A DNA stretch of 64,000 nucleotides. It comes from Streptomyces plumbidurans (GTDB lineage: Bacteria > Actinomycetota > Actinomycetes > Streptomycetales > Streptomycetaceae). Position 1 is the stretch's first letter; each line of letters opens with the position of its first letter. Of this stretch, positions 4,605 through 27,677 are shown in pieces. The position numbers were made by a program, and so were the translations under genes. The stretch spans positions 124,001 through 188,000 of the forward strand of contig NZ_JAFJSY010000004.1 of NCBI RefSeq assembly GCF_019857225.1. Direction: 5' to 3'. Below the pieces are notes generated by a model. That model had not been told where the DNA came from. It searched no databases and saw nothing but the letters and a program-made list of their open reading frames with translations.

Positions 4605-4636
4605 TGGACCTGACCGACCGGGAGAAGAGGAAGCAA

Positions 4637-8581: not shown

Positions 8582-9696
8582 ACCAGATTCCGCTTGTGGA
8601 CCTCAAGGCGGCCCACGAGGAGGTCGCCGACGAGGTACGGGCCGGATTCGAACGGGTCCTGGCCAACACCGCCTTCGTCGGCGGCGAGGAAGTCCGCCGA
8701 TTCGAGCGCGAGTACGCGGACTTCGGCGGCATCGCGCACTGCGTGGGCGTCGCCAACGGCACCGACGCCGTCGAACTCGCCCTGCGTGCAAGCGGGATCG
8801 GCCCCGGCGACGAGGTCGTGCTGCCCGCCAACACCTTCATTGCCACCGCGGGCGCGGTGGCCAGGATCGGCGCCCGCCCGGTCCTCGCGGACTGCCTGCC
8901 CGACAGCCAACTGCTCGATCTGCAGGCCGCGCTCGACGCGGTCGGCCCGGCCACCCGCGCGGTCGTCCCCGTCCACCTCTACGGCCAGATGGCCGACGTC
9001 GCGGCACTGACCGGCCAACTGCCCGACCGCGTAAGGGTCGTCGAGGACGCCGCCCAGAGCCAGGGCGCGAGCCGCGACGGCCGCACCCCGGGCAGCGGCC
9101 ACATCGCGGCCACCAGCTTCTACCCGGGCAAGAACCTCGGCGCCTACGGCGACGCGGGCGCGGTCCTCACCGACGACGAGGAACGCGCCGGCCTGGTGCG
9201 GGCCATCGCCAACCACGGCGGCACCGCCAAGTACCGCCACGACGTACCCGGGTTCAACAGCCGTCTGGACGGACTGCAGGCCGTCGTCCTGCGGGCCAAG
9301 CTGGCCCGCCTCGCCGACGGCAACACCGCCCGCCGGGCGGCCGCGGCCCGCTACGACGCGCTGCTCGCCGGCCTGGCCGAGGCCGGCCGTGTCGTCCTTC
9401 CGGTGACGGAGCCGGGCAACGTCCACGTCTGGCACCTGTACGTGATCCAGGTCGCCGGAGCCGACCGCGACGACGTCGTCGGCAAGCTCAACGCCGAGGG
9501 CATCGGCGCCGGAGTGCACTACCCGGCCCCGGTCCACCTCACCCCGGCGTACCGCCAACTCGGCCACAGCCGCGGCGACTTCCCGCACGCCGAAGCCGCG
9601 GCGGACCGGATCCTGTCCCTGCCGCTGTACCCGCAGATCAGCCCCGACCAGCAGCAACGGGTCGTCGACACGCTCACCGACGCACTCGACGGCTGA
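8578..9696 (+). CDS. DegT/DnrJ/EryC1 sugar 3-aminotransferase, WbpE/WlbC-like
   Basis: PLP-dependent aminotransferase for a 3-keto nucleotide sugar, 372 residues. The PLP lysine is Lys185 in SFYPGKNLGAYGDAGA; VEDAAQSQGA, FNSRLDGLQA and GVHYPAPVHL are hallmarks of the WbpE/WlbC and DesV/FdtB 3-aminotransferase branch. This makes it the natural partner of the 3-dehydrogenase at 4637: oxidise C3, then transaminate. It differs clearly from the 4-aminotransferase-like gene at 6732, so two amino groups or two amino sugars are implied. ATG overlaps the acetyltransferase stop by 4 nt. A 72-bp gap follows. Confidence 0.87.
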   Translation: MNQIPLVDLKAAHEEVADEVRAGFERVLANTAFVGGEEVRRFEREYADFGGIAHCVGVANGTDAVELALRASGIGPGDEVVLPANTFIATAGAVARIGARPVLADCLPDSQLLDLQAALDAVGPATRAVVPVHLYGQMADVAALTGQLPDRVRVVEDAAQSQGASRDGRTPGSGHIAATSFYPGKNLGAYGDAGAVLTDDEERAGLVRAIANHGGTAKYRHDVPGFNSRLDGLQAVVLRAKLARLADGNTARRAAAARYDALLAGLAEAGRVVLPVTEPGNVHVWHLYVIQVAGADRDDVVGKLNAEGIGAGVHYPAPVHLTPAYRQLGHSRGDFPHAEAAADRILSLPLYPQISPDQQQRVVDTLTDALDG

Positions 9697-9768: not shown

Positions 9769-12700
9769 ATGAAGAGATGGAGCAGACGGATCCGGGGCGG
9801 GCGCCTCGCCGTCGCAGCAGCACTGATATTGGCGGTGCTCCCGCTGGCCGGGTCCGCACAGGCTGCGTCCGATCCGTGCGGGTCGGGCTCGAACCCCATC
9901 GTCTGCGAGAACTCCAAGCCGGGCAGTCCCAAGGAGGACTGGTTCTCGCCCAACGCCTACGGTGACATCCAGGGCTTCTCCACCAAGGAGAGCGTCCAGG
10001 CCGGTGACACCGTCCAGTTCAAGATCCAGTCGAAGACCCCGTACAACGTCCAGATCTACCGTCTGGGCTGGTACGGCGGCGACGGCGCCCGTCAGATGTC
10101 GACCGCCGCCGAGGCGGCCAAGACGTACCCGGCCAACTACACTACGAATCCCGCCAGTTGCACCACCAAGCCCGCCGCGGGCCTGGTCGACTGCGGCAAC
10201 TGGCCGGTGACCGCGAGCTGGACCGTGCCCAGCGATGCCGTGTCCGGCCTGTACATCGCGAACCTGACGCAGACCGACGGCGACGGCCTGATGCCGTACC
10301 CCTTCGTCGTGCGCAACGACTCCAGCACCTCCGACGTCGTCGTGCAGACCAGCGACCAGACCTGGCAGGCCTACAACGACTACGGCGGCCAGGACCTCTA
10401 CGGAGGCACCGGGCCCGCGCCGGACGGCCGCGCCTACGAGGTCAGCTACAACCGGCCGCTGGACATCGGCGGCGACAACGGCATCTACGGCTCCGAGTAC
10501 ATGATGCTGGCCTGGCTGGAACGCAACGGCTACGACGTCAGCTACACCTCCGGCGTGGACGTGTCGTCCGCGAACGGCGCCGCCCTGCTGGAGAAGCACA
10601 AGGTGTATCTGTCGTCGGGGCACGACGAGTACTGGACGCAGAGCCAGTACTCCAACGTCCTCGCGGCCCGGAAAGCGGGCGTCCGCCAGGGCTTCTTCAG
10701 CGGCAACGAGGTCTTCTGGAAGACCCGCCTGGCCCCCAGCATCGACGGCACCAGCACCGCCGACCGCACCCTGGTCTGCTACAAGATGACCAAGATGGCG
10801 CAGAACAACGGCATCGCGGATCCCAGCGGCAGCTGGACCGGCACCTGGATGGACCCGGCCAGCAAGGACTACGGCCAGGACTACCAGCCGCCCAACATCC
10901 TCACCGGCTCCATGTTCACGGTGAACGGCTACCGCGCCGACGCCATCACCGTCCCCGGCTCGTACGGCAAGAACCGGATCTGGCGCAACACCTCGATCGC
11001 GGGCCTCAGTTCGAGCCAGACCGCCACGTTCCCGACGGGCACCCTCGGCTACGAGTGGGACAGCGACATCGACAACAGCACCCGGCCCGCCGGGGCGATC
11101 GACGTGTCGTCCACGACGGTCGACATCAACGACGGCAAGCTCCGCATGGACTGGGGCAACGTCTACGGCAACGGCACCGCGACGCACAACCTCGTCGAGT
11201 TCCGCGACCAGGACTCAGGAGCCCTGGTGTTCGGCACGGCGACCGTGCAGTGGTCGTGGGGCCTGACCAACGTGCCCACGTACAACCCCGACGACACGGT
11301 GGTCACCGAGGACTCCCGGATGCAGCAGGCGACGCTGAACATCCTCGCCGACATGGGTGTCCAGCCGCTGACCCGGCAGAGCAACCTCGTGGCCGCGACG
11401 GCCTCCACCGACACCACAGGGCCGACCGTCACCGTGACGAGCCCGGCCTCCGGGGTCACCGTGCCCGCGCTGAAGCCGCTCACCATCAAGGGCACCGCCA
11501 CCGACTCCGGCGGCGTGGTGGCCCGGGTGGAGGTGTCCACGGACGGCGGCAAGACCTGGAAGGCCGCGAGCGGACTGTCCTCCTGGACCTTCAGCTGGAC
11601 CCCGACCGCCCCGGGCGCGGCGTCCATCAAGGTCCGCGCGGTCGACGACAGCGTCAACATCGGCGCCGTCACCACCATCCCGGTGACCGTCGGCCCCCAG
11701 GCCTGCCCCTGCAGCATCTGGCCGGCCTCGGCGGTGCCCGGCACCGTCAACGCGGGCGACGGCAGCTCCCTGGAGCTGGGCGTCAAGTTCCGTACCACCG
11801 TGGCCGGTTCGATCACCGGCGTGCGCTTCTACAAGTCGCCCGCCAACACCGGCACCCACACCGGCAGCCTGTGGAGCGCCTCCGGCACCCGCCTGGCCAC
11901 CGGCACCTTCACCGACGAGACGGACTCCGGCTGGCAGCAGCTGAACTTTTCCACCCCGGTCACCGTCAAGGCCAACACCACCTATGTCGCCTCCTACTTC
12001 GCCCCCAACGGCGGATACTCCTACGACGGCGGCTACTTCGACGACAATGACGCGGGCCTGGCCCCGCTCACCGCACTGAAGTCCGGCACCGACGGCGGCA
12101 ACGGCGTCTTCCACTACGGCTCGACCAGCGCCTTCCCGAACACACCGTCCGAGGGCAGCAACTACTGGGTCGACGTGGTGCTGGACACCTCCACCGCCAG
12201 CACGACTCCGCCCACAGTCGGCTCGACCTCCCCGACGTCCGGGGCGACCGACACCTCGATCACGGCACCGGTGTCGGCCACCTTCAGCGCCGCCGTCGAC
12301 ACCGACGACGTGACGTTCACCGTGAAGGACGCGGACGGCGACACCGTGCCCGGCGCGGTCACCTTCCCCTCGTCGAACAAGGCGACTTTCACCCCGTCGA
12401 CGCAGCTGTCGCTGCACACCACGTACACCGCCTCGGTGCAGGCCTCCGACGTGTGGGGCAACGCCATGGCGGAACCGGTGACCTGGTCCTTCACCACCAG
12501 TTCCACCCCGCCCGCGGTCACCTGCCCCTGCACCCTGTGGAGTGCCTCCGCGACGCCGGCCACCACTGACACGACCGGGGACACCAACTCCGTGGAGCTG
12601 GGCACCCGGTTCACGTCCTCGGCGGACGGCTGGGTCACCGGTGTCACCTTCTACAAGGGCACCGGCAACACGGGCACCCACACCGGCAGCCTGTGGACCG

Positions 12701-13374
12701 ACGACGGCACGCTGCTGGGCAGCGGGACCTTCACCGACGAGACGGCGTCAGGCTGGCAGACCCTGACGTTCGCCACTCCGGTGCCCGTCACCGCCGGCAC
12801 CCCGTACGTCGTCTCCTACCACGCGCCGAACGGCAACTACGCGGTGAACGGCGGCTACTTCGCCGGCGCCCACCAGTCGTATCCGCTCACCGCCACGGCC
12901 GACACCACCGCGCACCACAACGGGCTCTACCGCTACGGCGCCGACCCGGCCTTCCCCAACGGCTCCTACGGATCCGCGAACTACTGGGTGGGCCCGGTCT
13001 TCACCGCCGAGAACCCGAGCGCGTCCCTGGCCACGGAGACCGCAACGGAGGTGACCGCGTCCTCGGCGGCGCACACCGCCGACGCGGCGAGCCCCCTGGT
13101 CATGGCCGTGGACAAGAAGGCCGCGGTGGCCTCGGTCAAGGCGAGCGTGAGCATCGTCAAGGGCTCCAAGGCGGCCAGAAAGCTCCATGTCACGGCCGTC
13201 GTCTCCTACGACCGGGCGACCCGCAAGGCGTCCGTCCGTCTGTCCGCCCCCCTGCCGGACGGCACCCGGTTCAAGGTCACGGTCACGGCGAAGGACAAGC
13301 ACCGGCACACGGTGAAGTCCCGCAGCTGGACGCTGACGAGCAAGACCGTCTTCCACAAGAAGAAGAGCCGATGA
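9769..13374 (+). CDS. Large secreted protein: DMFase-beta-like domain, Ig-like domains, two DUF4082
   Basis: A 1201-residue exported protein of unknown role. Residues 1-32 form a signal peptide (MKRWSRRIRG, hydrophobic core, cleavage after AQA). Residues about 55-535 resemble the N,N-dimethylformamidase large-subunit-like domain seen in many secreted actinobacterial proteins (IYRLGWYGGDGARQM, YLSSGHDEYWT, GFFSGNEVFWKTR). An Ig-like domain (about 545-630), a DUF4082 module (about 640-800), a second Ig/SbsA-like domain (about 805-900), a second DUF4082 (about 910-1075) and a Lys-rich tail follow. No sortase or membrane anchor is visible. Its stop overlaps the glycosyltransferase start at 13371, so it is truly part of the polysaccharide operon. 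Binding or modifying the polymer outside the cell is a guess. Confidence 0.85.
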   Translation: MKRWSRRIRGGRLAVAAALILAVLPLAGSAQAASDPCGSGSNPIVCENSKPGSPKEDWFSPNAYGDIQGFSTKESVQAGDTVQFKIQSKTPYNVQIYRLGWYGGDGARQMSTAAEAAKTYPANYTTNPASCTTKPAAGLVDCGNWPVTASWTVPSDAVSGLYIANLTQTDGDGLMPYPFVVRNDSSTSDVVVQTSDQTWQAYNDYGGQDLYGGTGPAPDGRAYEVSYNRPLDIGGDNGIYGSEYMMLAWLERNGYDVSYTSGVDVSSANGAALLEKHKVYLSSGHDEYWTQSQYSNVLAARKAGVRQGFFSGNEVFWKTRLAPSIDGTSTADRTLVCYKMTKMAQNNGIADPSGSWTGTWMDPASKDYGQDYQPPNILTGSMFTVNGYRADAITVPGSYGKNRIWRNTSIAGLSSSQTATFPTGTLGYEWDSDIDNSTRPAGAIDVSSTTVDINDGKLRMDWGNVYGNGTATHNLVEFRDQDSGALVFGTATVQWSWGLTNVPTYNPDDTVVTEDSRMQQATLNILADMGVQPLTRQSNLVAATASTDTTGPTVTVTSPASGVTVPALKPLTIKGTATDSGGVVARVEVSTDGGKTWKAASGLSSWTFSWTPTAPGAASIKVRAVDDSVNIGAVTTIPVTVGPQACPCSIWPASAVPGTVNAGDGSSLELGVKFRTTVAGSITGVRFYKSPANTGTHTGSLWSASGTRLATGTFTDETDSGWQQLNFSTPVTVKANTTYVASYFAPNGGYSYDGGYFDDNDAGLAPLTALKSGTDGGNGVFHYGSTSAFPNTPSEGSNYWVDVVLDTSTASTTPPTVGSTSPTSGATDTSITAPVSATFSAAVDTDDVTFTVKDADGDTVPGAVTFPSSNKATFTPSTQLSLHTTYTASVQASDVWGNAMAEPVTWSFTTSSTPPAVTCPCTLWSASATPATTDTTGDTNSVELGTRFTSSADGWVTGVTFYKGTGNTGTHTGSLWTDDGTLLGSGTFTDETASGWQTLTFATPVPVTAGTPYVVSYHAPNGNYAVNGGYFAGAHQSYPLTATADTTAHHNGLYRYGADPAFPNGSYGSANYWVGPVFTAENPSASLATETATEVTASSAAHTADAASPLVMAVDKKAAVASVKASVSIVKGSKAARKLHVTAVVSYDRATRKASVRLSAPLPDGTRFKVTVTAKDKHRHTVKSRSWTLTSKTVFHKKKSR

Positions 13375-14433: not shown

Positions 14434-14462
14434 CCCGGTGGCCGGGTCAGTTGGCCACCGGG
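14434..14462. terminator. Hairpin between convergent genes
   Basis: CCCGGTGGCC (14434-14443) pairs perfectly with GGCCACCGGG (14453-14462). It sits between the convergent glycosyltransferase (+) and Wzz-like gene (-), overlapping the last codons of the latter, so it may terminate both. No clear T-tract is seen. Confidence 0.55.
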
Positions 14463-15183: not shown

Positions 15184-17235
15184 GTGAGTCTTGGTGAGAT
15201 ATGGGCAATTCTGCGCCGACGCTGGTACTTCATGGTGCCCTTCACCGTGCTCAGCCTGATCGGTGGCGGCTATCTGTGGGTGACCGTGCCCGTCTCCTAC
15301 GAGTCGCACAGCTCCGTCGCGCTGCTGGACTCCTCGGCCGTCGCACGGCTCGCGCCCACCTTCGGCAATCCCATCTCGAACGCGGGCGGTTCGCTCATCG
15401 TCACGGCCGACGTGCTGATCAGAACGCTCGAATCGGCGGACGCCGCAAAGGAGTTGCAGGGCCGCGGAGTCACCGACGCGTACACGGCCGGCTTCGCACC
15501 GGCCAGCGACAGCCCGCTGCTGGTGCTCACGGTCACCGGCACGGACCGGGAGAAGGTGCTCAAGGAGACCAGCACCCTGACCGCGTTCGCCGGTGAGCAG
15601 CTCGACGCCCTGCAGTCCGCCGCGAAGGTCCCGCCCGCGTACGCCGTGCAGACCGCGCCCGTCGTGCTGCCGCAGACCCCCGTCGCCAAGTCCAAGAGCC
15701 GCTACCAGGGCGTCGCGGCCGTCGTCATCCTCGGTGTGGTCAGCGCGTTCCTGCTGTCCATCCTGATGGAGGGCGTCTCGGTGGTCCGCCGCCGCTACAA
15801 GACGGCGTCGAAACCCAAGAAGGCCCGCACTCCCGGGCGGGGCCGGGCGGGCATGCTCGGCCGGCGGGTCGACGCCACCGCGATCCTCACCGTCTACCTG
15901 GTGCTGGCCTTCTTCATCCCCTCGAACCTCGCCCTGCCCGCGCTCGGCGGAGTGGGCACCCCCGCCAATGTCTTCGCCCTGCTCGGCCTGATGTGGTACC
16001 TGGCGACCTGGCTCGGCGGCCGTATCCTGCCCGCGCCCGGCACCAGACTCGTGCGGGTCGCGCTGTGCGTGCTCGGGCTGGCCGTCCTTTCGGCGTACAT
16101 CTCCGACGCGATGCGCGAGAGTTCGCACGAGGAGGTCCTCGGGGCCGACCGCGGACTCATCGGCTTCCTGGTGTGGGTGTCCCTGGTCGTCCTGACCGCG
16201 GCGGCCATGCAGCAGCGCGGGCGGCTGGACGTGCTGATGCGCCGCGTGGTCGTCATGGCGTCCGTCGTCGCCGCGATCGGCTTCTACGACTTCTTCGCCG
16301 CCACCAACATCGCCGACTCCATCAACATCCCCGGCCTGCAGACCAGCGTGGCCCAGGTCAGCGTCATGGACCGCGGCGCCTTCACCCGGCCCCGGGCCAC
16401 CACGGCCCAACCCCTCGAATTCGCGGGCATGTTGGCCATCCTGCTGCCGTTCGCCGTCCAGCAGGCATTGGACCCGGTGCGCCGCCACCGCCACGCACTG
16501 CGCCGCTGGGGCCCGGTGATCCTGATGGCCGGCGCGCTGCCCCTGTCGGTGTCGCGGACCTCGATCATCGGCCTGCTGCTGGTGGCCCTGGTGATGGTGC
16601 CGCGCTGGAAGCCGGCCCGGCGCTGGGCCGCGATCGGTGTGCTGACGGGCTCCGTTGCCGTGTTCAAGGTGCTGGTTCCGGGCCTGATCGGCACCATCAC
16701 GGGCCTGTTCGCGTCGTTCCTGTCCAACTCCGACAGCAGCACCCAGGCCCGCACCGTCAAGTACAGCGCGATCGTGCCCTATCTGAAGGAACACCCGCTG
16801 TTCGGGCGGGGGTTCGGCACCTTCACCCCGGACCTGTACTTCTTCACCGACAACCAGTACATGCTGGGCCTCGCCGAGATGGGTCTGCTGGGGCTGATCG
16901 CCCTGCTCACCCTGTTCTTCACCGGCATCCACCAGGGCGGCGCGATCCGCCGGTTGGCGCGCACCGAGAGCGACCGTGAACTGGGCCAGGCGTTCTTCGC
17001 CTCGGCGCTGGTCGCCCTGGTCATCAGCGCCACCTTCGACTCGCTGAGCTTCCCGATGTTCGCCGGCATGTTCTTCCTGATGCTGGGGGCGGGGTCCGGC
17101 TATCTGGGCTTCGTCCGGCGCGAGGCGGCCGCCGCCACCGTGCCCGGCCCCCGCAGGACCCCGAAAACCGCACTGGCCCGACCAGTTGAGCGTCCCCGAC
17201 CGGCCGAGCTTCCCCGACCCGTGGAGTCCCGATGA
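15184..17235 (+). CDS. Wzz-domain/Wzy O-antigen-polymerase-like fusion protein
   Basis: A 683-residue membrane protein joining two functions usually encoded separately. Residues 1-205 resemble Wzz: MSLGEIWAILRRRWYFM, TM1, a periplasmic-type stretch with VLTVTGTDREKVLK, then TM2 (VVILGVVSAFLLSIL). After a basic linker (RRRYKTASKPKKARTPG) there are about ten or more hydrophobic segments (235-640) with a large loop and SRTSIIGLLLV and YLKEHPLFGRGFGTF, resembling O-antigen ligase/polymerase (Wzy_C) proteins. GTG at 15184 is chosen for its GGAGGG site and because it aligns with the start of the Wzz paralogue at 22326. It overlaps the downstream glycosyltransferase by 4 nt. Polymerase activity is inferred. 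Confidence 0.82.
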   Translation: MSLGEIWAILRRRWYFMVPFTVLSLIGGGYLWVTVPVSYESHSSVALLDSSAVARLAPTFGNPISNAGGSLIVTADVLIRTLESADAAKELQGRGVTDAYTAGFAPASDSPLLVLTVTGTDREKVLKETSTLTAFAGEQLDALQSAAKVPPAYAVQTAPVVLPQTPVAKSKSRYQGVAAVVILGVVSAFLLSILMEGVSVVRRRYKTASKPKKARTPGRGRAGMLGRRVDATAILTVYLVLAFFIPSNLALPALGGVGTPANVFALLGLMWYLATWLGGRILPAPGTRLVRVALCVLGLAVLSAYISDAMRESSHEEVLGADRGLIGFLVWVSLVVLTAAAMQQRGRLDVLMRRVVVMASVVAAIGFYDFFAATNIADSINIPGLQTSVAQVSVMDRGAFTRPRATTAQPLEFAGMLAILLPFAVQQALDPVRRHRHALRRWGPVILMAGALPLSVSRTSIIGLLLVALVMVPRWKPARRWAAIGVLTGSVAVFKVLVPGLIGTITGLFASFLSNSDSSTQARTVKYSAIVPYLKEHPLFGRGFGTFTPDLYFFTDNQYMLGLAEMGLLGLIALLTLFFTGIHQGGAIRRLARTESDRELGQAFFASALVALVISATFDSLSFPMFAGMFFLMLGAGSGYLGFVRREAAAATVPGPRRTPKTALARPVERPRPAELPRPVESR

Positions 17236-18134
17236 GCACGACCGTCGCCGTCATCGTCGTCACCTGGAACAGCGCCTCGGTGCTCCCCGGGTTCCTGGCC
17301 GCGCTGCCCGACGCCATGAAGGGCCTCGACCACCGGCTGGTCGTCGCCGACAACGACTCTGCCGACGACACCGTCGACATCCTCAAGACCCTGGCCCCCG
17401 AGGCCACCGTCGTCCAGACCGGCCGCAACGCCGGGTACGCCGCCGGGGTCAACGCGGCGCTGAACGCCGCCGGGGACATCGGCGCCGCCCTGATCTGCAA
17501 CCCCGACATCCGGATGCGGCAGGGCTGCGCGAAGCGGCTCGTCGACAGCCTGGGGGAGGGCGTCGGGATCGCCGTACCCCTGCTCTACGAGGAGGGCCGG
17601 GACACCCCCCACTATTCGCTGCGACGTGAGTCGAGCGTGCCGCGGGCGCTGGGCGAGGCGGTGATCGGCAACCGCCGGGCCGGGCGGTTCCCGGCCCTGA
17701 GTGAACTGGTCACCGACCCCGGCGCCTATCGCCGCCCCACCCGCGTCGACTGGGCGACCGGCGCCCTGATGGCGATCTCGGCCGACTGCCTGTCCGCCTG
17801 CGGTCCCTGGGACGAATCCTTCTTCCTCTACTCGGAGGAGACCGAATTCTGCCTGCGCGCGCGGGACTTGGGCCACGCCACACAGCTGGAGCCGACCGCC
17901 GAGGCCGTCCACCTCGGAGGCGACTCCCAGGTCTCACCCCGCCTGTGGAGCCTGCTCACGGTCAATCGCGTACGGCTGTACGCGCGTCGGCACGGAAGGC
18001 TCGCCACCCTCTGCTTCCGGGCCGCCGTCCTGCTGCGCGAGGCGTCACGGGCGGCCCTCGGACGCAAGGCGAGCCGCGCGGCGGCGGGCGCCCTTCTCAG
18101 GCCGGGGGCGCTGCGGGCGACGCCCGGGCCGTGA
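17232..18134 (+). CDS. Glycosyltransferase family 2, rhamnosyltransferase-like
   Basis: GT2 enzyme, 300 residues. VAVIVVTWNSASVLPGFL, VVADNDSADDT, GRNAGYAAGVNAAL and CNPDIRM are the successive blocks of the WbbL-like rhamnosyl/galactosyl-transferase branch. WATGALMAIS and FFLYSEETEFCLRARDLG complete the acceptor/metal site typical of this branch. Its start overlaps the polymerase stop by 4 nt (ATGA), linking it to the Wzz-Wzy fusion. It is convergent with the gene ending at 18146, with only 11 bp between them. Rhamnose specificity is suggested by resemblance only. Confidence 0.86.
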   Translation: MSTTVAVIVVTWNSASVLPGFLAALPDAMKGLDHRLVVADNDSADDTVDILKTLAPEATVVQTGRNAGYAAGVNAALNAAGDIGAALICNPDIRMRQGCAKRLVDSLGEGVGIAVPLLYEEGRDTPHYSLRRESSVPRALGEAVIGNRRAGRFPALSELVTDPGAYRRPTRVDWATGALMAISADCLSACGPWDESFFLYSEETEFCLRARDLGHATQLEPTAEAVHLGGDSQVSPRLWSLLTVNRVRLYARRHGRLATLCFRAAVLLREASRAALGRKASRAAAGALLRPGALRATPGP

Positions 18135-18145
18135 CCGGAGGGCGC

Positions 18146-18940
18146 TCAGCCGCCGCTCCAAGTCGTGTAGAAACTCTCGGGGTTGACCAGGTACCGCACC
18201 GTCGCGTGCGGCACGTGGCGCACCTCGTGGTTCCGGCTGTAGCGGTACACCAGCTCCCAGTCCTCACGCGGGAGCACCTTCGGTGTCCGGCGCAGGCGGC
18301 TGAAGTGCAGGGCGCCGTCGCGGCGGGCCACGAACGCGTTGGTGTCGAGGAAGGACTCGCGGGCGGCGCGGCGGCGGTCGAACGGGACGGAGAGGGTGTC
18401 GCGTTCGGTGCCGTCCGGCAGGACGCGAAGCAGGGCGGTGTAGATGCCGTCGGGGCCGCCGGGGGAGTCCAGGACCGCCAACGCCCGTTCCAGATGGTCG
18501 GATTCCCAGACGTTGTCGTCGTCGAGGAAGGCCACGTAACGGGAGCGGGTGAGGCGGATGCCGACGTTGCGCACGACACCGGCCACGGCGGTGTTGCGGG
18601 CCAGTGACACCGCGAACAGCCGTGGATCGTCCGGGAGTTCGGGGAGCCCCGCGCCGTCGTCGACGACGATGACGACCTGGTCGCGCACGGTCTGCGCCAG
18701 CGCCGAGCGGACGGCCGCCCGCAGTGCGTCCGGCCGGCGGTGGGTGGCGATGACGGTGGCCACGAGGGCGCTGGGCATGGGCCCCGTTGCGGCCTTGAGG
18801 CGGCGGACCTCCGCGGATTCGAAGCGGCGCAGCCGCAGCGCGGACGGCGCGAGCAGCACCTTGTTGCGCAGCTCGAAGAGGACCAGCCAGCCGAAGGCGC
18901 CCTTGAGAAGCTCCCAGGGAGCCCGCGCGACACGTCTCAT
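18146..18940 (-). CDS. Glycosyltransferase family 2
   Basis: GT-A sugar transferase, 264 residues. After an N-terminal amphipathic or membrane-associated stretch (LLKGAFGWLVLFELRNKVLL), the catalytic fold begins at about residue 60 (LVATVIATHRRPDALR). VIVVDDGAGLPE and VAFLDDDNVWESDHLE are the acidic nucleotide and DxD motifs. ATG at 18940 has GAGGAAGAGGA upstream. It is the last gene of the minus-strand polysaccharide operon, 11 bp after the beta-helix lipoprotein gene. The donor sugar is unknown. Confidence 0.85.
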   Translation of the reverse strand: MRRVARAPWELLKGAFGWLVLFELRNKVLLAPSALRLRRFESAEVRRLKAATGPMPSALVATVIATHRRPDALRAAVRSALAQTVRDQVVIVVDDGAGLPELPDDPRLFAVSLARNTAVAGVVRNVGIRLTRSRYVAFLDDDNVWESDHLERALAVLDSPGGPDGIYTALLRVLPDGTERDTLSVPFDRRRAARESFLDTNAFVARRDGALHFSRLRRTPKVLPREDWELVYRYSRNHEVRHVPHATVRYLVNPESFYTTWSGG

Positions 18941-18951
18941 GGTCCTCTTCC

Positions 18952-19998
18952 TCAGCCGGCCGGTGCGGGGGTGATCGGGGTGCCGTCGGCGAAGCGGTTG
19001 TCGCGCCAGACGTTGCCGCTGCCCGTGGCGTTCCAGGCGGTGACGGCGCCGTAGACACCGGCGTTGCCGTGGTACCGGGTCGAGAAGACGTTGTCGGTGA
19101 CCGTGATCCCGGTGGCCCCGTCGCCGCCGCCGTAGAGGGCGTAGGCGCCGCCCGCCAGCAGGTTGCCGTCGATGACGGTGTCGGAGACATGGCCGGTGTC
19201 GGCGAACAGCCCGATGCTCGCGGACGCCCCCCGGTTCACGTCGACCGGGTTGAGCAGCGTGTTGTGCCGGATGACCAGCCTGCCCGTGTTGCCGCCGCCG
19301 CTGATCACCGCGTCCGTGTGCTGCCACTCGCCACCGGCGTTGCGGAACGGGACGAGGTCGTGGACGTAGTTGTCGTGGATGGTGCCCTGGCCCATGGACA
19401 GCGCGTTGCCGAACACGGAGATGTCGCACCAGCCGACCTCGACGGAGCTGGTCCCCATGTTGGACACGGCGTAGTCCACACCGCCGTTGTCGGGGCCCTT
19501 GCCCGGGACGGCCGTGATGGTGGTGTGCAGGACCCGCAACCCGTGATGGCCGGGACGGAGGTTGACGCCCCACCAATTGGTTGAGGTGATCCGGGAGTCG
19601 ACGATGGTCACGTCGTTCGCGTAGATGTCCAGGGACCCGGTGATGTCCCAGCCCTTGATGACCGTGCCGTCGGTCCTGACGCTCATGTTGCCTGTGGCGT
19701 GCGGCTTGAGGCGGGTCCGGGGGCCGGTGGTGCGGGCGCTGGGGAAGTCGGCCTCCACGGGTGCCACGGTGGTGACGCGGGTCGAGGGCTTGGCGCCGGA
19801 CCCGGTGGCGGAGGGCGGGGAGCTGGGGCTGGGCGTGGGGGAGGCCGTGGCCGAGGGGGAGGGGCTGGACGCCGGCGCGGCCGAGGGCCGGTCGTGGGTG
19901 CCGGCCGTGTGCGGTGACGCGGACGGAGCGCCGGAGCCGGAGCAGCCGGCGATCAGCAGCAGGGCCAGGCAGGCGAGCGGGCCGCGGAGCCTTCTCAT
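18952..19998 (-). CDS. Secreted lipoprotein with right-handed parallel beta-helix
   Basis: A 348-residue predicted lipoprotein. The signal peptide ends in the lipobox LIAGC (Cys about 18), followed by a Ser/Pro/Thr/Ala-rich flexible linker (about 20-75). From about 95 onward there are regularly spaced short beta repeats (IKGWDITGSLDIYANDVTI, VIRHNTLLNPVDV, VIDGNLLAGGAYALYGG), the pattern of pectate-lyase-like parallel beta-helices that bind or cleave polysaccharides. The ATG overlaps the Wzx stop by 4 nt, so it is embedded in the export operon. A role as surface lyase, hydrolase or anchor for the polymer is inference; catalytic residues could not be assigned. Confidence 0.75.
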   Translation of the reverse strand: MRRLRGPLACLALLLIAGCSGSGAPSASPHTAGTHDRPSAAPASSPSPSATASPTPSPSSPPSATGSGAKPSTRVTTVAPVEADFPSARTTGPRTRLKPHATGNMSVRTDGTVIKGWDITGSLDIYANDVTIVDSRITSTNWWGVNLRPGHHGLRVLHTTITAVPGKGPDNGGVDYAVSNMGTSSVEVGWCDISVFGNALSMGQGTIHDNYVHDLVPFRNAGGEWQHTDAVISGGGNTGRLVIRHNTLLNPVDVNRGASASIGLFADTGHVSDTVIDGNLLAGGAYALYGGGDGATGITVTDNVFSTRYHGNAGVYGAVTAWNATGSGNVWRDNRFADGTPITPAPAG

Positions 19999-21500
19999 AC
20001 GGCCTCCGGTGTCCGGGTGCCGCGCAGGAAGCCGAGGCCGGGCAGGACGCACAGCACGTAACTGGCCAGCGCCACCGCGCCGATGGCGAACACGGCCGGG
20101 GTGCCGTCGCCGAGCAGCCGTCGCGCGCCGAGGATCACCAGGGTCATCACGATTCCCCCGAGGAAGGGCCAGGCACAGGCTCTGGCGATGTGGGCGAGGC
20201 CGATCCCGGCCCGGCCGAGGGCGTGCAGGAACACCGGGACGACCAGCACTGCGCCGACCAGGACGTGGCCCTGCGCGACGCCGACGATGCCGCCCGTGCG
20301 CGCGCCGACGATCAGGACCGGGACGAGAGCGACGACCCACAGACCCTGCACGAGGATGAGGGAGCGCCGCTGCCCGGACGCCACCAGGCAGTCGTAGGCG
20401 AGTTCGCAGCCGATGCGGATCAGACCCAGGGCCATCAGCCAGGGCAGCGCCTCGGCGGCGGGCAGCCACTTGCCGCCGTAGACGAGGTGGACGACCGGGC
20501 CCGCGAGGCCGCCGAGCAGGACGCACAGGGGCACGGTGCCGGTGACCAGCACCCCGAGCGCCCGGCTGAAGCCCTGGGCGAGGGCCTGCGGGGTGTCGGC
20601 GAGGCGGGAGAAGCCGGCGAAGGAGACCCGCCGGGCCGCCTCGGAGATGACCCGGACGGGCCAGCCGGACATGTTGAACGCCAGGACGTAGAAGCCGAGG
20701 GAGACCCCGCCGAGCGTGGAGCCGACGACCAGGGTGTCCACGTTGACGACCGCGAGCGCGAGCAGGCTCGCACCGGCCAGGGGGAGCCCGAACTTCAGCA
20801 GGGCGCGGGCCTGTTCGCGGTCCCAGCCGAAGCGCAGGGTGCCCGGGGCGGCCACGGCGGAGGCGACGAGCGCGGCGACGTTGCCCACGACCGCGCCCCA
20901 CGCGAAGCTCATCGCGCCCCAGCCCGCGAAGGCCAGCGTCAGGGTCACGGCGGTGCTGAGGACGAAGTTGAGCGCGTCGATGAGCATTCGCTTGCCCTGC
21001 GCGAACTCGCGGGTCAGGAAGCCGGCGGGCACCTGCGCCACCCCGTCGATCACCAGGCACAGACACATCACGCGCAGGACGCCCGAGGCGTGCGGCGAGT
21101 CGAGCAGACCGGCCACCGTCGGCGCCGAGACGAACAGCGCGGCGTACAACACGACGCTGGAGGCGGTCGCCAGGGTCAGCACCGTCGGCGCGAAGCGGCG
21201 CGGGTCGCCGTCCCAGCGGATGAGGGCCAGGCTGACGCCCAGCTCGTTCGCCGAGAGCAGGACCAGCAGGACGGTCTGGGCGATGCCGTAGACGCCCCAC
21301 TCGGCCGGGCCCAGGGCGAAGCGCGCCAGCAGGATGCCCGTGGCGAAGTTGCCCAGGCGCATGACCACGGTGTTGATCAGGCTCCACCGGGCCGCCGAAC
21401 GGACCTTGCGGCCAAAGGAGTTGTCGACCGCCGGAACTGACGCCCCGGAGTTCCCGCTCGCCTCAGATCTCTCGCTGTCCGGTGTGCGAACGCTGTCCAT
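19995..21500 (-). CDS. Wzx-type oligosaccharide flippase
   Basis: Polytopic membrane protein, 501 residues, with 12-14 hydrophobic segments, of the polysaccharide-transport (PST/MOP) superfamily. It should flip the undecaprenyl-linked repeat unit across the membrane. Family-like phrases are SLINTVVMRLGNFATGILLAR at TM1 (20-residue core) and FYVLAFNMSGWPVRVISE mid-protein. ATG at 21500 has GAGGAG 8 nt upstream; the first 38 bp overlap the end of the Wzz-like gene, and the stop overlaps the lipoprotein start. With the Wzz-Wzy fusion at 15184 it implies a Wzx/Wzy-dependent assembly route. Confidence 0.88.
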   Translation of the reverse strand: MDSVRTPDSERSEASGNSGASVPAVDNSFGRKVRSAARWSLINTVVMRLGNFATGILLARFALGPAEWGVYGIAQTVLLVLLSANELGVSLALIRWDGDPRRFAPTVLTLATASSVVLYAALFVSAPTVAGLLDSPHASGVLRVMCLCLVIDGVAQVPAGFLTREFAQGKRMLIDALNFVLSTAVTLTLAFAGWGAMSFAWGAVVGNVAALVASAVAAPGTLRFGWDREQARALLKFGLPLAGASLLALAVVNVDTLVVGSTLGGVSLGFYVLAFNMSGWPVRVISEAARRVSFAGFSRLADTPQALAQGFSRALGVLVTGTVPLCVLLGGLAGPVVHLVYGGKWLPAAEALPWLMALGLIRIGCELAYDCLVASGQRRSLILVQGLWVVALVPVLIVGARTGGIVGVAQGHVLVGAVLVVPVFLHALGRAGIGLAHIARACAWPFLGGIVMTLVILGARRLLGDGTPAVFAIGAVALASYVLCVLPGLGFLRGTRTPEAV

Positions 21501-22326
21501 GAGTCGACTCCTCGTCGAGCGGCTCGGCGGCGGACGCCACGGCCGTGGCGGACCGTCCGGCCCCCGGCTGCGTGGCGCGCCGGTTCTCGGCGGAACGCGA
21601 CCAGGCGGGCGGCCGCCTGAGGGCGATCGTCTGGTCCGCGACCGGCTCCCCGGCCTTCGGCTCGGGGAAGTCGTCCTGCCCCGCCGGTTCTTCGGGCGGC
21701 GCGAATTCGTCCGGCCCCGCCGCGGTGCGCGGTCGGCGGCGCGCCTCCACGTAGAAGACGGCGACCAGGCTCAGCACCAGACCCAGGAGCCCGGCCATGA
21801 CCATGTACTCCAGCCGCGTCTTCGTCTGCGCCGCCGGGTTCTGCGGCGGCACGATCGTCGTCATGCGGATCATGGCCTTCGGGGCGACCGACTGCTGCTT
21901 CTGGAACTGGTCGAGGCGGTCCTTGGCGTACGAGGTGAAGACCTTGTCCGAGGCCAGGACGGAGGCCTTGTCGGTGCCGGTGACGGTCAGCCACATCAGC
22001 GGGCCCTGCGCGTTGTCGGCGAGCTTGGCCTCGAACGTGCCTTTGGCTCCACGGGACTTGAGCTCCCGCAGCGACACGTCGGAGTTGAGATTGCGGGCCA
22101 GGCTGTCGGCCATGCCGGTGAGCGAGGTCTGGGTGCTGAGGAAGGGGTTGCCGTCGTAGGCCATGGTGGCCTTCTGGGAGTTGAGGAGGACCACGGTGCT
22201 CTGCGACTGGTAGGTGACCGGGACCAGCACGAGGACGCCGACGACCAGACCGGCGGTCAGCAGCAGTCCCGGCAGCAGGACGTACCAGCGCCTGCGCATG
22301 ACGCGGAAGATCTCAGCGAGATCCAT
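21463..22326 (-). CDS. Wzz-like chain-length determinant protein
   Basis: A 287-residue membrane protein. MDLAEIFRVMRRRWYVLL leads into TM1 (about 19-38); an extracytoplasmic domain with LTVTGTDKASVLASD closely parallels the Wzz part of the fusion protein at 15184, so the two are paralogues. TM2 spans about 173-192, then a long Pro/Glu/Arg-rich cytoplasmic tail of about 90 residues. No Walker A/B motif is seen, so it is a Wzz-type or capsular-adaptor (CapA-like) protein without kinase. It lies 51 bp after the 2-epimerase gene and overlaps the Wzx gene start. Confidence 0.8.
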   Translation of the reverse strand: MDLAEIFRVMRRRWYVLLPGLLLTAGLVVGVLVLVPVTYQSQSTVVLLNSQKATMAYDGNPFLSTQTSLTGMADSLARNLNSDVSLRELKSRGAKGTFEAKLADNAQGPLMWLTVTGTDKASVLASDKVFTSYAKDRLDQFQKQQSVAPKAMIRMTTIVPPQNPAAQTKTRLEYMVMAGLLGLVLSLVAVFYVEARRRPRTAAGPDEFAPPEEPAGQDDFPEPKAGEPVADQTIALRRPPAWSRSAENRRATQPGAGRSATAVASAAEPLDEESTHGQRSHTGQREI

Positions 22327-22377: not shown

Positions 22378-23598
22378 TCATATGGGGAACGTTCGGTCCG
22401 TAGGTCTGGGCTGGTCCGTAGGTCTGGGCTGGTCCGTGGGGCTGGGCTGGTCCGTGGGGCTGGGCTGGTCAGTGGGGCTCGGCTGATCCGTGGGTCTCGG
22501 CCGGTCGGTCGGTCGTGGCCGGGTGCTCGCGGTGCCTCCTCCCAGCAGCACGTCGGCGATGCGGTCGCTCGCGCGGCCGTCCCACAGGTCGGGTCTGCGC
22601 GGTGCGGGCGGGGCGTCCAGTACGGCGCTCACGGTGGCCACGATCCGCGCCGGGTCCCGGCCGGCGAGCACATTGGTGCCCTGCTCGACGGTGATGGGGC
22701 GCTCGGTGTTGTCCCGCAGGGTCACACAGGGCACGCCCAGTGCGGTCGTCTCCTCCTGCACGCCGCCGGAGTCGGTCAGCACGAGGCGGGCCGCGTCCTG
22801 CAGCGCGATGAAGTCCAAGTACCCTGCGGGCGGCACGAGTTGGATGCCGCCCGGCACGCCGATCTCGGCCAGCTTCCCGGCCGCCCGCGGATGCACGGGC
22901 AGCACGAGCGGGCAGCTTCCGGCGATCTCGCCCAGGGCCTTGAGCAGTCCGGCGAGGACCTCGGGGTCGTCGACATTGGCGGGCCGGTGCAGGGTGACCA
23001 GGCCGAACTCGCCCTGGGACAGGCCGTATCGGCCGAGCACGTCCGAGGCGCGGGCCCGTTCCAGGTTGGCCAGCAGCGTGTCGATCATGACGTTGCCGAC
23101 CAGATGGATCTGGTCCTCCCGGTAGCCCTCCGCGCGCAGGTTGGCGACGGCATCGGGGGAGGGGGCCAGCAGGTAGTCGCTGACCCGGTCCGTGGCGACC
23201 CGGTTGACCTCCTCCGGCATGCCCCAGTCGCGGCTGCGCAGACCGGCCTCGACATGGGCGAGCAGCGGTCCGGCCTTGGCGGTGACCAGGGCGCAGGCCA
23301 GCGTGGAATTGATGTCGCCGACCACGACGACGAGGTCCGGCGCCACCTCCTCCAGCAGCGGTTCGAACGCGGTCATCACCCGTCCGGTCTGCTCCGCGTG
23401 GCTGCCGGAGCCGACCCCCAGGAAGCGGTCGGGCGGGCGGATGCCGAGGTCGGCGAAGAACACGTCGTTCATGGCCGGGTCGTAGTGCTGGCCGGTGTGG
23501 ACGAGGAGCAGCTCGGCGCCCCGGCGTTCCAGGGCGTCCATCACCGGTTTGATCTTCATGTAGTTGGGGCGCGCCCCGGCGACACAGACGATGCGCAT
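22378..23598 (-). CDS. Non-hydrolysing UDP-N-acetyl-amino-sugar 2-epimerase, WecB/WbpI-like
   Basis: Cytoplasmic GT-B-fold epimerase, 406 residues. WecB interconverts UDP-GlcNAc and UDP-ManNAc; the homologue WbpI does the same at C2 of UDP-2,3-diacetamido-glucuronate. Seen: VAGARPNYMKIKPV, HTGQHYD, HVEAGLRS, MPEEVNR, THRPANVD and DSGGVQEE, all family signatures. ATG at 23598 follows the dehydrogenase stop by 4 nt. The last 45 or so residues are a Pro/Thr/Asp/Gln hexapeptide repeat absent from the core family. The WbpI reading is favoured because WbpA, B, D and E-like genes are all present, but WecB activity alone is possible. Confidence 0.88.
   Translation of the reverse strand: MRIVCVAGARPNYMKIKPVMDALERRGAELLLVHTGQHYDPAMNDVFFADLGIRPPDRFLGVGSGSHAEQTGRVMTAFEPLLEEVAPDLVVVVGDINSTLACALVTAKAGPLLAHVEAGLRSRDWGMPEEVNRVATDRVSDYLLAPSPDAVANLRAEGYREDQIHLVGNVMIDTLLANLERARASDVLGRYGLSQGEFGLVTLHRPANVDDPEVLAGLLKALGEIAGSCPLVLPVHPRAAGKLAEIGVPGGIQLVPPAGYLDFIALQDAARLVLTDSGGVQEETTALGVPCVTLRDNTERPITVEQGTNVLAGRDPARIVATVSAVLDAPPAPRRPDLWDGRASDRIADVLLGGGTASTRPRPTDRPRPTDQPSPTDQPSPTDQPSPTDQPRPTDQPRPTDRTFPI
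22395..22520 (-). repeat. In-frame 18-bp tandem repeat, 7 units
   Basis: Seven contiguous 18-bp units (first unit 22395-22412) encode the C-terminal PTDQPS/PTDQPR hexapeptide tail of the 2-epimerase. The first two units are identical and divergence grows toward 22520. There are no spacers, so this is not a CRISPR. Confidence 0.93.
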
Positions 23599-23602
23599 GG
23601 CT

Positions 23603-24862
23603 TCAGAGCACCTCGATCGTGGGTCCGGACGGCAGCCGCCGACGGCAGTCCAGGACGAAGGGGGCGTGTTCGGCGACGAGTTCGTAGTCGAAGCTGTCGT
23701 GGTCCGTGAGCAGCACCACCACGTCGGCGCCCGCCAGCTCCTCGGGTGTCGGCTCGACCCGCACCAGCCGGGTGTCCACCGGCAGGCTCTCGACGACATG
23801 CGGATCCGCCGCCCTGACCTGCGCGCCCATGTCGAGCAGAAGTTGGGAGATGCGCAGGGCGGGCGACTCGCGGGCGTCGCCGGTGTTCTTCTTGTACGCC
23901 AGCCCCAGCAGCAGGACCCGCGAGCCGTTGACGGAGCGCCGCCGGTCGTTGAAGTGCTCGCTGATGCGGCGCGTCACGTACTCCGGCATATGGCCGTTGA
24001 TGTCGTTGGCCAGCTCCACGAACCGGAAGTTCTGGCCCAGTTCGCGCTGCACCCGCCAGGACAGATAGGAGGGGTCGATCGGCAGGCAGTGGCCGCCGAC
24101 GCCCGGGCCTGGCGTGAACTTCATGAAGCCGAAGGGCTTGCTGGAGGCCGCGTCGATGGCCTGCCAGATGTCGATGTCCAGGTGATGGGCGAACATCGCG
24201 ACCTCGTTGACCAACGCGATGTTCACATGCCGGAAGGTGTTCTCCAGCAGCTTGGCGAGCTCGGCCTCCTTGGGGGAGCGCACCGGCACGGTGGTGTCGA
24301 CGAGTTGGGCGTAGAAGTCCTGAACCGCCTTCAGAGAGGCGTCGTTCACTCCGGAGACGACCTTCGGGGTCTCCTTGAAGCCCCACACGGCGTTGCCGGG
24401 GTCGATCCGTTCGGGGCTGTAGCCGAGCTGGAAGTCGGCGCCCGCGGTCAGTCCCGAGCCCTCCTCCAGGATCGGCGCGAACAGCTCCTGGGTGGTGCCG
24501 GGATAGGTCGTCGACTCCAGGACGACCGTTGCGCCGGGACGCAGATAGCGGGCGAGGGTGACCGCCGACTCCTTGATGTACCGCAGGTCGGGGGTGCCCT
24601 CGTGCAGCGGGGTCGGCACGGTCACCACGGCGATGTCGAAACCGCCGCAGTCGCGGGCCGAATCGCTCGCCCGGTAGGTGCCGTTGTCCAGGGCTGCGCG
24701 GATCCTCTCGGAGGAGACGTCCTCGACGAAGGACTCACCGGCGGCGAGGCGCTTGATCCGCCGGGCGTCGACGTCGTAGCCGATCACCTCGTGTCCGACC
24801 TCGGCGGCCCGGATGGCCAGGGGCAGGCCGACGTAGCCCTGCCCCACCACGACGACGCGCAT
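23603..24862 (-). CDS. UDP-N-acetylglucosamine 6-dehydrogenase-like enzyme, WbpA family
   Basis: NAD-dependent four-electron dehydrogenase that turns the C6 hydroxyl of a UDP-HexNAc into a carboxylate, 419 residues. Seen: N-terminal Rossmann GQGYVGLPLA (8-17), YSPERIDPGN, catalytic Lys204 in AKLLENTFRHVNIALVNE and catalytic Cys259 in GPGVGGHCLPIDP, then a C-terminal UDP-binding domain with GLAYKKNTGDARESPA. The GGHCLPIDP form matches WbpA/TviB-type UDP-GlcNAc dehydrogenases more than WecC. The ATG overlaps the WecG-like stop by one base (TGATG) with AGGAGT upstream. It would supply UDP-GlcNAcA to the 3-dehydrogenase at 4637. Confidence 0.88.
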   Translation of the reverse strand: MRVVVVGQGYVGLPLAIRAAEVGHEVIGYDVDARRIKRLAAGESFVEDVSSERIRAALDNGTYRASDSARDCGGFDIAVVTVPTPLHEGTPDLRYIKESAVTLARYLRPGATVVLESTTYPGTTQELFAPILEEGSGLTAGADFQLGYSPERIDPGNAVWGFKETPKVVSGVNDASLKAVQDFYAQLVDTTVPVRSPKEAELAKLLENTFRHVNIALVNEVAMFAHHLDIDIWQAIDAASSKPFGFMKFTPGPGVGGHCLPIDPSYLSWRVQRELGQNFRFVELANDINGHMPEYVTRRISEHFNDRRRSVNGSRVLLLGLAYKKNTGDARESPALRISQLLLDMGAQVRAADPHVVESLPVDTRLVRVEPTPEELAGADVVVLLTDHDSFDYELVAEHAPFVLDCRRRLPSGPTIEVL

Positions 24863-25632
24863 CAGTGACTCCTGTTCGCGGGGGCGGTCGACGCGGTGAG
24901 CCGGATCAGCTCGCGCGCCGTCATGAGGAGGAAGGAGACGTTGGTGGTGAGGTAGCGCCGGCCCAGACGTCGGGGCTCCTGCTTGACGCGGTAGAGCCAC
25001 TCCAGGCCCCAGCGCTGCCAGGTGGCGGGGGCGCGCTTGGTGACTCCGGCCAGGATGTCGAAGGAGCCGCCGACGCCGTGCACCACGCGGGCGCCGGTGC
25101 GGGTGCCGTAGGCGGCGGTGAAGATCTCCTTCTTCGGCGAGGTCATGCCAAGGAAAAGCATCTGGGCACCGCTTCGCGCGATGGTGTCGGCGATCTCCTG
25201 CTGCTCGGAGTCGTCGAAGTAGCCGTTGCGGCTGCCGGCCACCTTCAGACCGGGGAAGCGGTCGGCGACGCGGAGCAGCATCCGCTCCATCACCTCCTGC
25301 TTGGCGCCGAGGAAGTACACGGAGATGCCCGCCGCCTCCGCCTCGGCCAGCAATCGCAGGAACAGGTCGATCCCGGCCACCCGCTCGGGCAGCGGGGCGC
25401 GCAGCACCCGCCCGGCCCACACCACGGCCTGTCCGTCCGCGAGGACCAGATCGCAGCCGGAGACCGCCTTGGCGAGCCGTTCGTCGCGCCGCATGTTGAC
25501 CAGCTTCGCGGCGTTGACCACGCCGATCTCCAACTGCCGTTTGTCACGCACCGCTTCGAGACAGCGCTCGACGGTCTCGTCCATCGTCAGCGGATCCAGC
25601 TCGACGCCGAACAACTTCCGACGCTCCGTCAT
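24862..25632 (-). CDS. WecG/TagA/CpsF-family glycosyltransferase
   Basis: Membrane-associated transferase of the GT26 family, 256 residues, which moves ManNAc, ManNAcA or related sugars onto polyprenyl-linked acceptors. Seen: VVNAAKLVNMRRDE, LADGQAVVWAGR, ERVAGIDLF (the TagA T/S-G-x-D region appears as AGID), YFLGAKQEV and LGMTSPKKE (family GSPKQE block). A Rossmann-like core ends near residue 200, followed by the basic C-terminal tail used for membrane docking in TagA. It is linked by short overlaps to the WbpA-like gene and to the unknown gene at 25629. ManNAc-type donor use fits the 2-epimerase in the same operon. Confidence 0.87.
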   Translation of the reverse strand: MTERRKLFGVELDPLTMDETVERCLEAVRDKRQLEIGVVNAAKLVNMRRDERLAKAVSGCDLVLADGQAVVWAGRVLRAPLPERVAGIDLFLRLLAEAEAAGISVYFLGAKQEVMERMLLRVADRFPGLKVAGSRNGYFDDSEQQEIADTIARSGAQMLFLGMTSPKKEIFTAAYGTRTGARVVHGVGGSFDILAGVTKRAPATWQRWGLEWLYRVKQEPRRLGRRYLTTNVSFLLMTARELIRLTASTAPANRSH

Positions 25633-27077: not shown

Positions 27078-27677
27078 TCACGCACGTTCGAGGAGTTCAC
27101 TGTCCTTCTCGTCGTACAGCGCACCCGTCCGCGGGCACTCCCACACGCCCGGCTCGCCCTCGCGCTCGACAAGCCGTACGCCGGCCCGTCCGACCCAGCC
27201 GATCCGGCGCGCCGGAACACCGGCCACGAGAGCGAAGTCCGGTACGTCGCGGGTCACTACGGCGCCCGCCGCGACCAGCGCCCAGCGACCGACACGCACC
27301 GGCGCCACGCACACCGAACGGGCGCCCAGCGACGCGCCTTCGGCCACCGTCACCGCGACGGGCTCCCAGTCGCCGCCGCGCTTGAGCCGGCCCTCTTCGT
27401 CCACCGACCTCGGGAAGTAGTCGTTGGTCAGCACGGCCGCCGGGCCGACGAACACCCCGTCGGCGAGGACGGCAGGCTCGTAAACCAGCGCGTAGTTCTG
27501 CAACTTGACGTTGTCGCCGATCCGGACGCCGGGGCCGACATACGCTCCCCGGCCCACGATGCATCCGTTGCCCAGCAGGGCGTTCTCCCGGATCTGGGCC
27601 AGATCCCAGACCGTTGTCCCGTCGCCGACCGTGGCCGTCTCGTCGACCTGTGCGGTCGGCTGGATTCTGAAGCTCAA
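27078..27677 (-). CDS. WbpD/WlbB-like UDP-amino-sugar N-acetyltransferase
   Basis: Left-handed beta-helix acetyltransferase, 199 residues. WlbB/WbpD acetylate the 3-amino group of UDP-2-acetamido-3-amino-glucuronate. Hexapeptide turns run from residue 8 to about 165: AQVDETATVGDGTTVWD, QIRENALLGNGCIVGRG, KLQNYALVYEPAVL, VFVGPAAVLTNDYFPRS, CVAPVRVGRWALV. The VGPAAVLTNDYFPRS block and the segment after it are typical of WxcM-N/WbpD proteins. The C-terminal WECPRTGALYDEKD extension is also seen in some relatives. The start is TTG with AAAGG upstream. It lies 55 bp after the nucleotidyltransferase gene on the same strand. Confidence 0.82.
   Translation of the reverse strand: MSFRIQPTAQVDETATVGDGTTVWDLAQIRENALLGNGCIVGRGAYVGPGVRIGDNVKLQNYALVYEPAVLADGVFVGPAAVLTNDYFPRSVDEEGRLKRGGDWEPVAVTVAEGASLGARSVCVAPVRVGRWALVAAGAVVTRDVPDFALVAGVPARRIGWVGRAGVRLVEREGEPGVWECPRTGALYDEKDSELLERA

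Follow-up and report, generated by a model that had tools for sequence, protein, structure and literature searches.

What does a beta-helix protein do at the surface of a streptomycete in which its gene is coupled to that of a polysaccharide flippase? The question arises from a stretch of Streptomyces plumbidurans DNA (assembly GCF_019857225.1, contig NZ_JAFJSY010000004.1, positions 124,001 to 188,000; 64,000 nucleotides in total, hereafter the window) with a G+C content of 70.6%, taken from a genome of 8.64 Mb in 189 contigs. Its span 18952-21500 consists of two minus-strand genes, one for a beta-helix lipoprotein of 348 amino acids (18952..19998) and one for a Wzx-type flippase (19995..21500; Polysacc_synt_3, E 1.7e-54). 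The answer favoured here, and held with about even confidence, is that the lipoprotein would be a surface-tethered enzyme cleaving or epimerising the polymer of its own gene cluster. We base it on the synteny with Wzx and sugar genes, the conservation of one strand face (PB1), the linkage to similar genes in rhizobia, the fusions to RTX repeats found there, and fold matches to RbmB and alginate enzymes.

Judged from sequence comparison, the lipoprotein frame is a real gene and no chance open reading frame, because relatives are found in 30 loci and the 4-nt overlap with the Wzx stop recurs. In the window the ATG (19998-19996) overlaps the flippase TGA (19997-19995). Seeded with no other protein than that of the window, the genome scan covers close relatives; Wzx lies directly upstream of the relative in 26 of the 30 loci, the cluster being conserved in Streptomycetaceae. 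An in-frame start with the 4-nt overlap is present in the window and in 12 of these 26 loci, the start lies at most 12 nt from the Wzx stop in 10 more and farther away in two (L031, L036), and no start passing the filter was found in the remaining two (L030, L035). Six of the 12 overlap loci carry an alternative start 6 or 27 nt 3' of the Wzx stop, which may be the true one there.

The N-terminus reads MRRLRGPLACLALLLIAGC, followed by S and a stretch rich in Ser, Pro and Ala up to about residue 80. Read from the sequence, the signal peptide ends in the lipobox LIAGC with Cys19 (19942..19998, minus strand), as in bacterial lipoproteins, and the Ser/Pro/Ala-rich linker behind it (19759..19941, minus strand) is predicted to be disordered, with a predicted local distance difference test score (pLDDT) below 50 for residues 1-75. 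Of the 26 loci in which Wzx is adjacent, inspection by eye found a lipobox Cys in 14; in 10, among them the ambiguous L040 (LVTC), the N-terminus is hydrophobic but shows no clear lipobox, and L030 and L035 were left unclassed; membrane anchoring of the relatives seems to be kept by two different means. An alignment of the close family (A1) comprises 28 of the 30 loci plus the window, without L025 and L030. Most other Gram-positive A1 relatives keep a Cys pair just before the beta-helix (CASPGACGFPDA as an example; 19744-19770, minus strand), which the window protein, L014-L018 and L020 lack. The lipoprotein is closest to proteins of other Streptomyces, above all to that of S. spinosisporus (91%), and its only clear match in the window genome is the gene itself, five others (E 0.08-8) covering linker-like stretches.

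Residues 85-345 (18964..19746, minus strand) are predicted to form a right-handed parallel beta-helix. The AlphaFold2 model, built from 29 sequences, has a mean pLDDT of 80 with 206 residues at or above 90, and the 10-residue blocks between 81 and 340 have mean values of 83-98. An earlier note on this DNA had described a LIAGC lipobox, a Ser/Pro linker, a parallel beta-helix and a 4-nt overlap with the Wzx gene, all of which are borne out, and surface anchoring and tight coupling to flippase and polymerase genes are supported as well. Structural alignment with VIA-align gave 424 of 626 aligned solved chains with a Z of at least 8, and the 50 chains listed from it are beta-helix proteins as judged by title or general knowledge. 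The best-aligned chain is the alginate lyase of Paenibacillus FPU-7 (6kfn; Z 21.0, rmsd 2.9, 220 aligned), at 15% identity and with several other chains within 1 Z unit, followed by an alginate epimerase/lyase (8ja4; Z 20.8, rmsd 2.8, 216 aligned). Foldseek returned four PDB rows at E <0.001: two for the same tailspike, one for a PL6 alginate lyase and one for RbmB. The predicted model therefore has the fold of the AlgE/AlgG epimerases and of the PL6/PL31/RbmB lyases. The Pfam model Beta_helix (PF13229) scores 17.5 bits on the window protein, under its cut-off of 25.9; it is matched by 19 of 29 family members at E up to 0.1, and the cut-off is passed by four of nine relatives scanned (L046, L047 and two of L048), with L039, L041 and L043 below it and two of L044 unlisted.

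Conservation is greatest on one strand face of this helix. To assign the faces we used the DSSP string together with the Asn ladder, which marks turn T2; conservation was counted over 28 rows (A1 without L043). PB1 is the best conserved strand face in the close family (mean 0.899, against 0.800 for PB2 and 0.889 for PB3), and its residues judged to point outward reach 0.949 versus 0.780 for alternating PB2 residues. Of 20,000 random draws of positions, 0.27% equalled or exceeded the PB1 value; with draws restricted to strands the share was 2.1%. Residues invariant on or beside PB1 include W142, W143, N146, R148, Y176, S179 and S201 as well as H227, S233, D267, Y286, Y289, Y316 and W322. In a wider alignment of 20 rows from three phyla (A3, numbered on the whole window protein) the invariant columns are P86, G103, H227, G235, N246, N279, G283, Y289 and G317. 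Among His residues, then, His227 (19318..19320, minus strand) alone stays unchanged throughout the 20 rows, and Tyr289 (19132..19134, minus strand) does so too; Arg148 (19555..19557) and Asp267 (19198..19200), both likewise on the minus strand, are invariant in the 28 close members and variable in distant homologs.

These features can be combined into a mechanism. Co-translated with the Wzx flippase, the lipoprotein would be kept on the membrane's outer face, where the Wzx/Wzy machinery would finish an acidic polymer with a predicted amino-uronic acid (ManNAc3NAcA or ManNAcA). The presumed PB1 groove would bind the chain, and His227 with Tyr286/Tyr289 might cleave it by beta-elimination or epimerise it, in the close family with help from Arg148 and Asp267. 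For AlgE7, His154 is the proposed base and Tyr149 the acid, and Arg148 steers between lyase and epimerase action (PMC8824271); by analogy, H227, Y286/Y289 and R148 could act comparably here. The residue number 148 shared by AlgE7 and the window protein is a coincidence. The evidence does not separate a lyase from an epimerase, and catalysis itself is a prediction.

Three known systems offer precedents of different closeness. RbmB of Vibrio cholerae is a lyase of the organism's own VPS (Vibrio polysaccharide), which is made by a system with Wzx/Wzy similarity, and its action involves a sugar that carries a carbonyl at C6 (PMC11637428). It resembles the window protein in being a beta-helix, predicted or solved (Foldseek E 9.7e-4 for 9ozl_A), but differs in that identity is 12%, the Foldseek TM-score 0.23, and no sequence-family link was found. 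RbmB is presumably not a lipoprotein, unlike the window protein. The AlgE mannuronan C5-epimerases are alike in fold (5lw3; Z 19.8, rmsd 2.7, 215 aligned) and join catalytic A-modules to calcium-binding R-modules (PMC7385640), just as the Pararhizobium and Microvirga homologs of the lipoprotein join the beta-helix to RTX repeats, a part that the window protein itself lacks. AlgG, a periplasmic epimerase within the alginate assembly and export complex (PMC7385640), also aligns in fold (4ozz; Z 19.1, rmsd 2.7, 212 aligned), whereas the window protein has a lipid anchor and belongs to a Gram-positive organism. The epimerase motif YG(F/I)DPH(D/E), with its catalytic Tyr and His (PMC8824271), is found in none of the 35 distinct family proteins (48 rows scanned, 13 of them second, trimmed copies). 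The string DPH in three of the 35, all rhizobial, was considered and rejected because it sits before the PB1 strand. In AlgE4 we take the motif to be positioned after that strand.

The missing motif is one of several points that weigh against an enzyme. No Pfam or NCBIfam model of a lyase, epimerase or hydrolase matches the lipoprotein, Pfam at E up to 1 giving nothing but Beta_helix and NCBIfam at E up to 0.1 nothing at all. Among PDB sequences up to E 10, neither phmmer nor the A1 or A3 profile found a relative: phmmer returned weak rows at chance level (a linker match at E 0.29 as the best, NosD at E 2.1), two unrelated rows came from the A1 profile and none from that of A3. All PHROGs families lay at E 0.02 or above, and a search of the phage collection found nothing. 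PB3 comes close to PB1 in conservation, the rows are not independent of one another, and the groove follows from a hand-assigned coil register. R148 and D267 vary among the seven distant homologs (Arg, Glu, Met, Val or Lys at position 148; Asp, Glu, Tyr or Thr at 267), and there is no invariant Lys. A polygalacturonase-like acid at D229 was rejected, as the residue is Asn in many members and hence no essential acid. Among the solved chains, NosD (Z 19.6, rmsd 2.9, 217 aligned) and the adhesin PfbA (Z 19.5, rmsd 3.2, 236 aligned), both non-enzymes, align within 1.5 Z units of the top, so that the fold cannot choose between an enzyme and a binder.

The surface lyase or C5-epimerase of the earlier note thus gains from the conservation of the presumed groove face and loses by the lack of a lyase match in Pfam or NCBIfam and of the AlgE/AlgG motif. 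The charged cluster expected on the groove is present as far as R148, H227, D267 and Y289 go, none of which varies among the 28 close members; no Lys is among them, and the suggested comparison with AlgG holds for the fold and fails for the motif. AlgK, also named there, is to our knowledge not a beta-helix protein.

That non-enzymes align about as well as enzymes is what a non-catalytic protein would lead one to expect, one that binds or tethers the polymer and whose beta-helix holds the nascent chain at the membrane or passes it to the wall. The seven aromatic residues W142, W143, Y176, Y286, Y289, Y316 and W322, invariant in the 28 close members, would suit sugar binding, and beyond H227 and Y289 the A3 invariants are only Asn, Gly and Pro positions. 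We nevertheless regard such a binder as somewhat unlikely: one His and one Tyr of the presumed groove face are strictly conserved in all three phyla, and R148 and D267 are conserved in the close family. A glycoside hydrolase, which would shorten the polymer by hydrolysis to set its length or to release it, appears distinctly improbable; hydrolytic tailspikes and the beta-helices of GH87, GH110 and GH136 do occur among the fold matches, but the presumed PB1 groove has no invariant acid pair, D229 being Asp or Asn, E224 variable and D267 alone.

An enzyme acting on the cluster's polymer calls for a polymer that fits, and the surrounding genes predict one. The cluster is of the Wzx/Wzy type: the flippase, a Wzy-like O-antigen ligase/polymerase (15232..17235, plus strand; Wzy_C, E 8e-15) and a priming sugar-phosphate transferase (3261..4604, plus strand; TIGR03025, 372 bits, cut-off 296) pass their cut-offs, and two Wzz matches do not. 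Upstream of the flippase, the minus strand encodes a non-hydrolysing UDP-GlcNAc 2-epimerase of the WecB/WbpI type (22378..23598; TIGR00236, 299 bits, cut-off 210), a nucleotide-sugar 6-dehydrogenase of the WecC/WbpA type (23603..24862; TIGR03026, 409 bits, cut-off 190), on which models for UDP-ManNAc dehydrogenase score under their cut-offs, a WecG/TagA/CpsF glycosyltransferase (24862..25632; TIGR00696, 156 bits, cut-off 69) and a hexapeptide acetyltransferase (27078..27677), whose closest PDB sequence is the lipopolysaccharide biosynthesis acetyltransferase 3mqg (E 1.4e-40). The plus strand adds a Gfo/Idh/MocA oxidase (4604..5692) and a DegT sugar aminotransferase (8578..9696), which resembles several sugar aminotransferases in the PDB, WbpE among them and not first. 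A WbpB role is proposed for the oxidase from its context and a sub-threshold match to its best NCBIfam model, UDP-GlcNAc 3-dehydrogenase (NF040723, 142 bits, cut-off 450); its two PDB matches are both unnamed oxidoreductases.

By gene content this set fits the WbpA-B-E-D-I route to UDP-ManNAc3NAcA and is probably a route to that N-acetylated amino-uronic acid, a simpler ManNAcA polymer being possible instead. The scans list two DegT aminotransferases and two hexapeptide acetyltransferases in the cluster, and a second set (SDR, DegT, NeuD-type) is compatible with a diacetamido-bacillosamine-like sugar. The uronic acid that the earlier note had expected is therefore upheld as a prediction; it is probably an amino-uronic acid, so that the polymer would not be alginate-like. 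On the substrate side, gene content strengthens the earlier guess. The utr teichuronic-acid-like cluster of S. griseus shares sugar genes assigned to UDP-ManNAc3NAcA, and ManNAc3NAcA, there the product of a different cluster, was observed by nuclear magnetic resonance. Its assembly differs in being assigned to wall-teichoic-acid-type transferases, and the words 'wzy' and 'beta-helix' occur 0 times in the main text (PMC13274773). The Actinoplanes imp, wps and gsf clusters, also compared, have other gene sets (PMC13390465, PMC12691653).

The sugar genes travel with the lipoprotein gene. Homologs of WecB, WecC and WecG are present in 25 of the 26 Wzx-linked loci, the exception (L025) being a 3.3-kb contig, and a homolog of the family 2 glycosyltransferase (18146..18940, minus strand) lies 3' of the lipoprotein gene on the same strand in 26 of the 30 loci; it is found 0.8-1.3 kb further on in L027, L031, L032 and L040. 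A tblastn search against plasmids returned 29 records (26 Sinorhizobium and one each of Pararhizobium, Microvirga and Streptomycetaceae). On S. meliloti pSymB two copies lie near homologs of a short-chain dehydrogenase/reductase (SDR, 68%), the Gfo/Idh oxidase (46%), two DegT aminotransferases (47 and 44%) and a hexapeptide protein (40%), in a region annotated with a priming transferase, Wzz and an O-antigen ligase. On Pararhizobium p2 two copies lie near homologs of WecC (33%), WecG (54%), an orphan protein (46%) and WecB (32%); its wider annotation holds DegT, SDR, Gfo/Idh and acyltransferase genes and, by annotation only, a third beta-helix gene. Both compared Pararhizobium copies end in RTX repeats, the Microvirga copy carries such repeats too, and those of S. 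meliloti do not; around the Microvirga copy, in a record without annotation, only a weak acetyltransferase match was found. In a tree the five rhizobial and Microvirga rows stand apart from 28 Gram-positive rows, its long branches leaving deeper relations unsure. The likeness to clusters on rhizobial megaplasmids points to a related polysaccharide system in phyla that are far apart. Titles and abstract openings in the literature showed no report on this beta-helix gene, and nothing joining S. meliloti pSymB, beta-helix and polysaccharide.

That the lipoprotein gene is a passenger, its product having some target other than this polymer, is most improbable in view of the synteny in 26 of 30 loci and of the similar sugar genes linked in two rhizobial plasmids, even though, within the loci compared, the Ktedonobacteria L039 and L042 show, apart from DUF4082 fused to the beta-helix, no homolog of the cluster, in L043 (Hyphomicrobium) the beta-helix stands alone, and no polysaccharide genes are annotated near L046, the copy on a Streptomycetaceae plasmid.

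Further features accompany the cluster, in the window and elsewhere. The SDR (5749-6735, plus strand) exceeds, in its 68% identity to the pSymB protein, the other genes compared there (47% or less), and was possibly transferred between phyla. In S. meliloti (L048:26937-32270) an annotated ISRm3 element lies between two near-identical beta-helix genes, one of which has a long repeat-rich C-terminus. A Wzz-like chain-length protein precedes the flippase (21463..22326, minus strand; PF02706, E 4.2e-5, 24.2 bits, just below the 25.5 cut-off), and a second Wzz-like frame beside the Wzy gene (14447-15112, minus strand; Pfam Wzz, E 0.054, 14.3 bits versus 25.5) keeps its synteny in most loci. Another family 2 glycosyltransferase, from the family scan, is encoded at 17232..18134 (plus strand). 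A 1201-aa protein (9769..13374, plus strand) combines DMFA2_C (dimethylformamidase-like), Ig-like and DUF4082 domains; in L041 (Allorhizocola) the beta-helix lies beside homologs of this protein, two glycosyltransferases and five sugar genes. The joining of DUF4082 to the beta-helix in the two Ktedonobacteria (by tblastn for both, by Pfam for L039) hints at a shared surface role of the 1201-aa protein and the lipoprotein; the literature search found nothing linking DUF4082 with polysaccharide. Beside WecG, a 356-aa orphan protein (25629-26699, minus strand; no Pfam above cut-off, no NCBIfam match) is kept in Streptomycetaceae with 70-97% identity in 19 aligned relatives, is 46% identical to the protein beside WecG in Pararhizobium, and is modelled as mostly helical at low confidence (mean pLDDT 64).

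Beyond the single locus, we put forward tentatively a so far unassigned beta-helix enzyme family that would cleave or epimerise diacetamido-uronic polymers, with a sugar-gene set common to streptomycetes and rhizobia, membrane-tethered in Gram-positives and, in some Gram-negatives, RTX-fused and probably secreted. We know of few enzymes that act on ManNAc3NAcA-type polymers. Umbrella toxins use as their receptor a surface glycan of Streptomyces of which ManNAc3NAcA forms part (PMC13274773). With a conserved, operon-coupled candidate and its named residues, the remodelling of such polymers by streptomycetes becomes testable.

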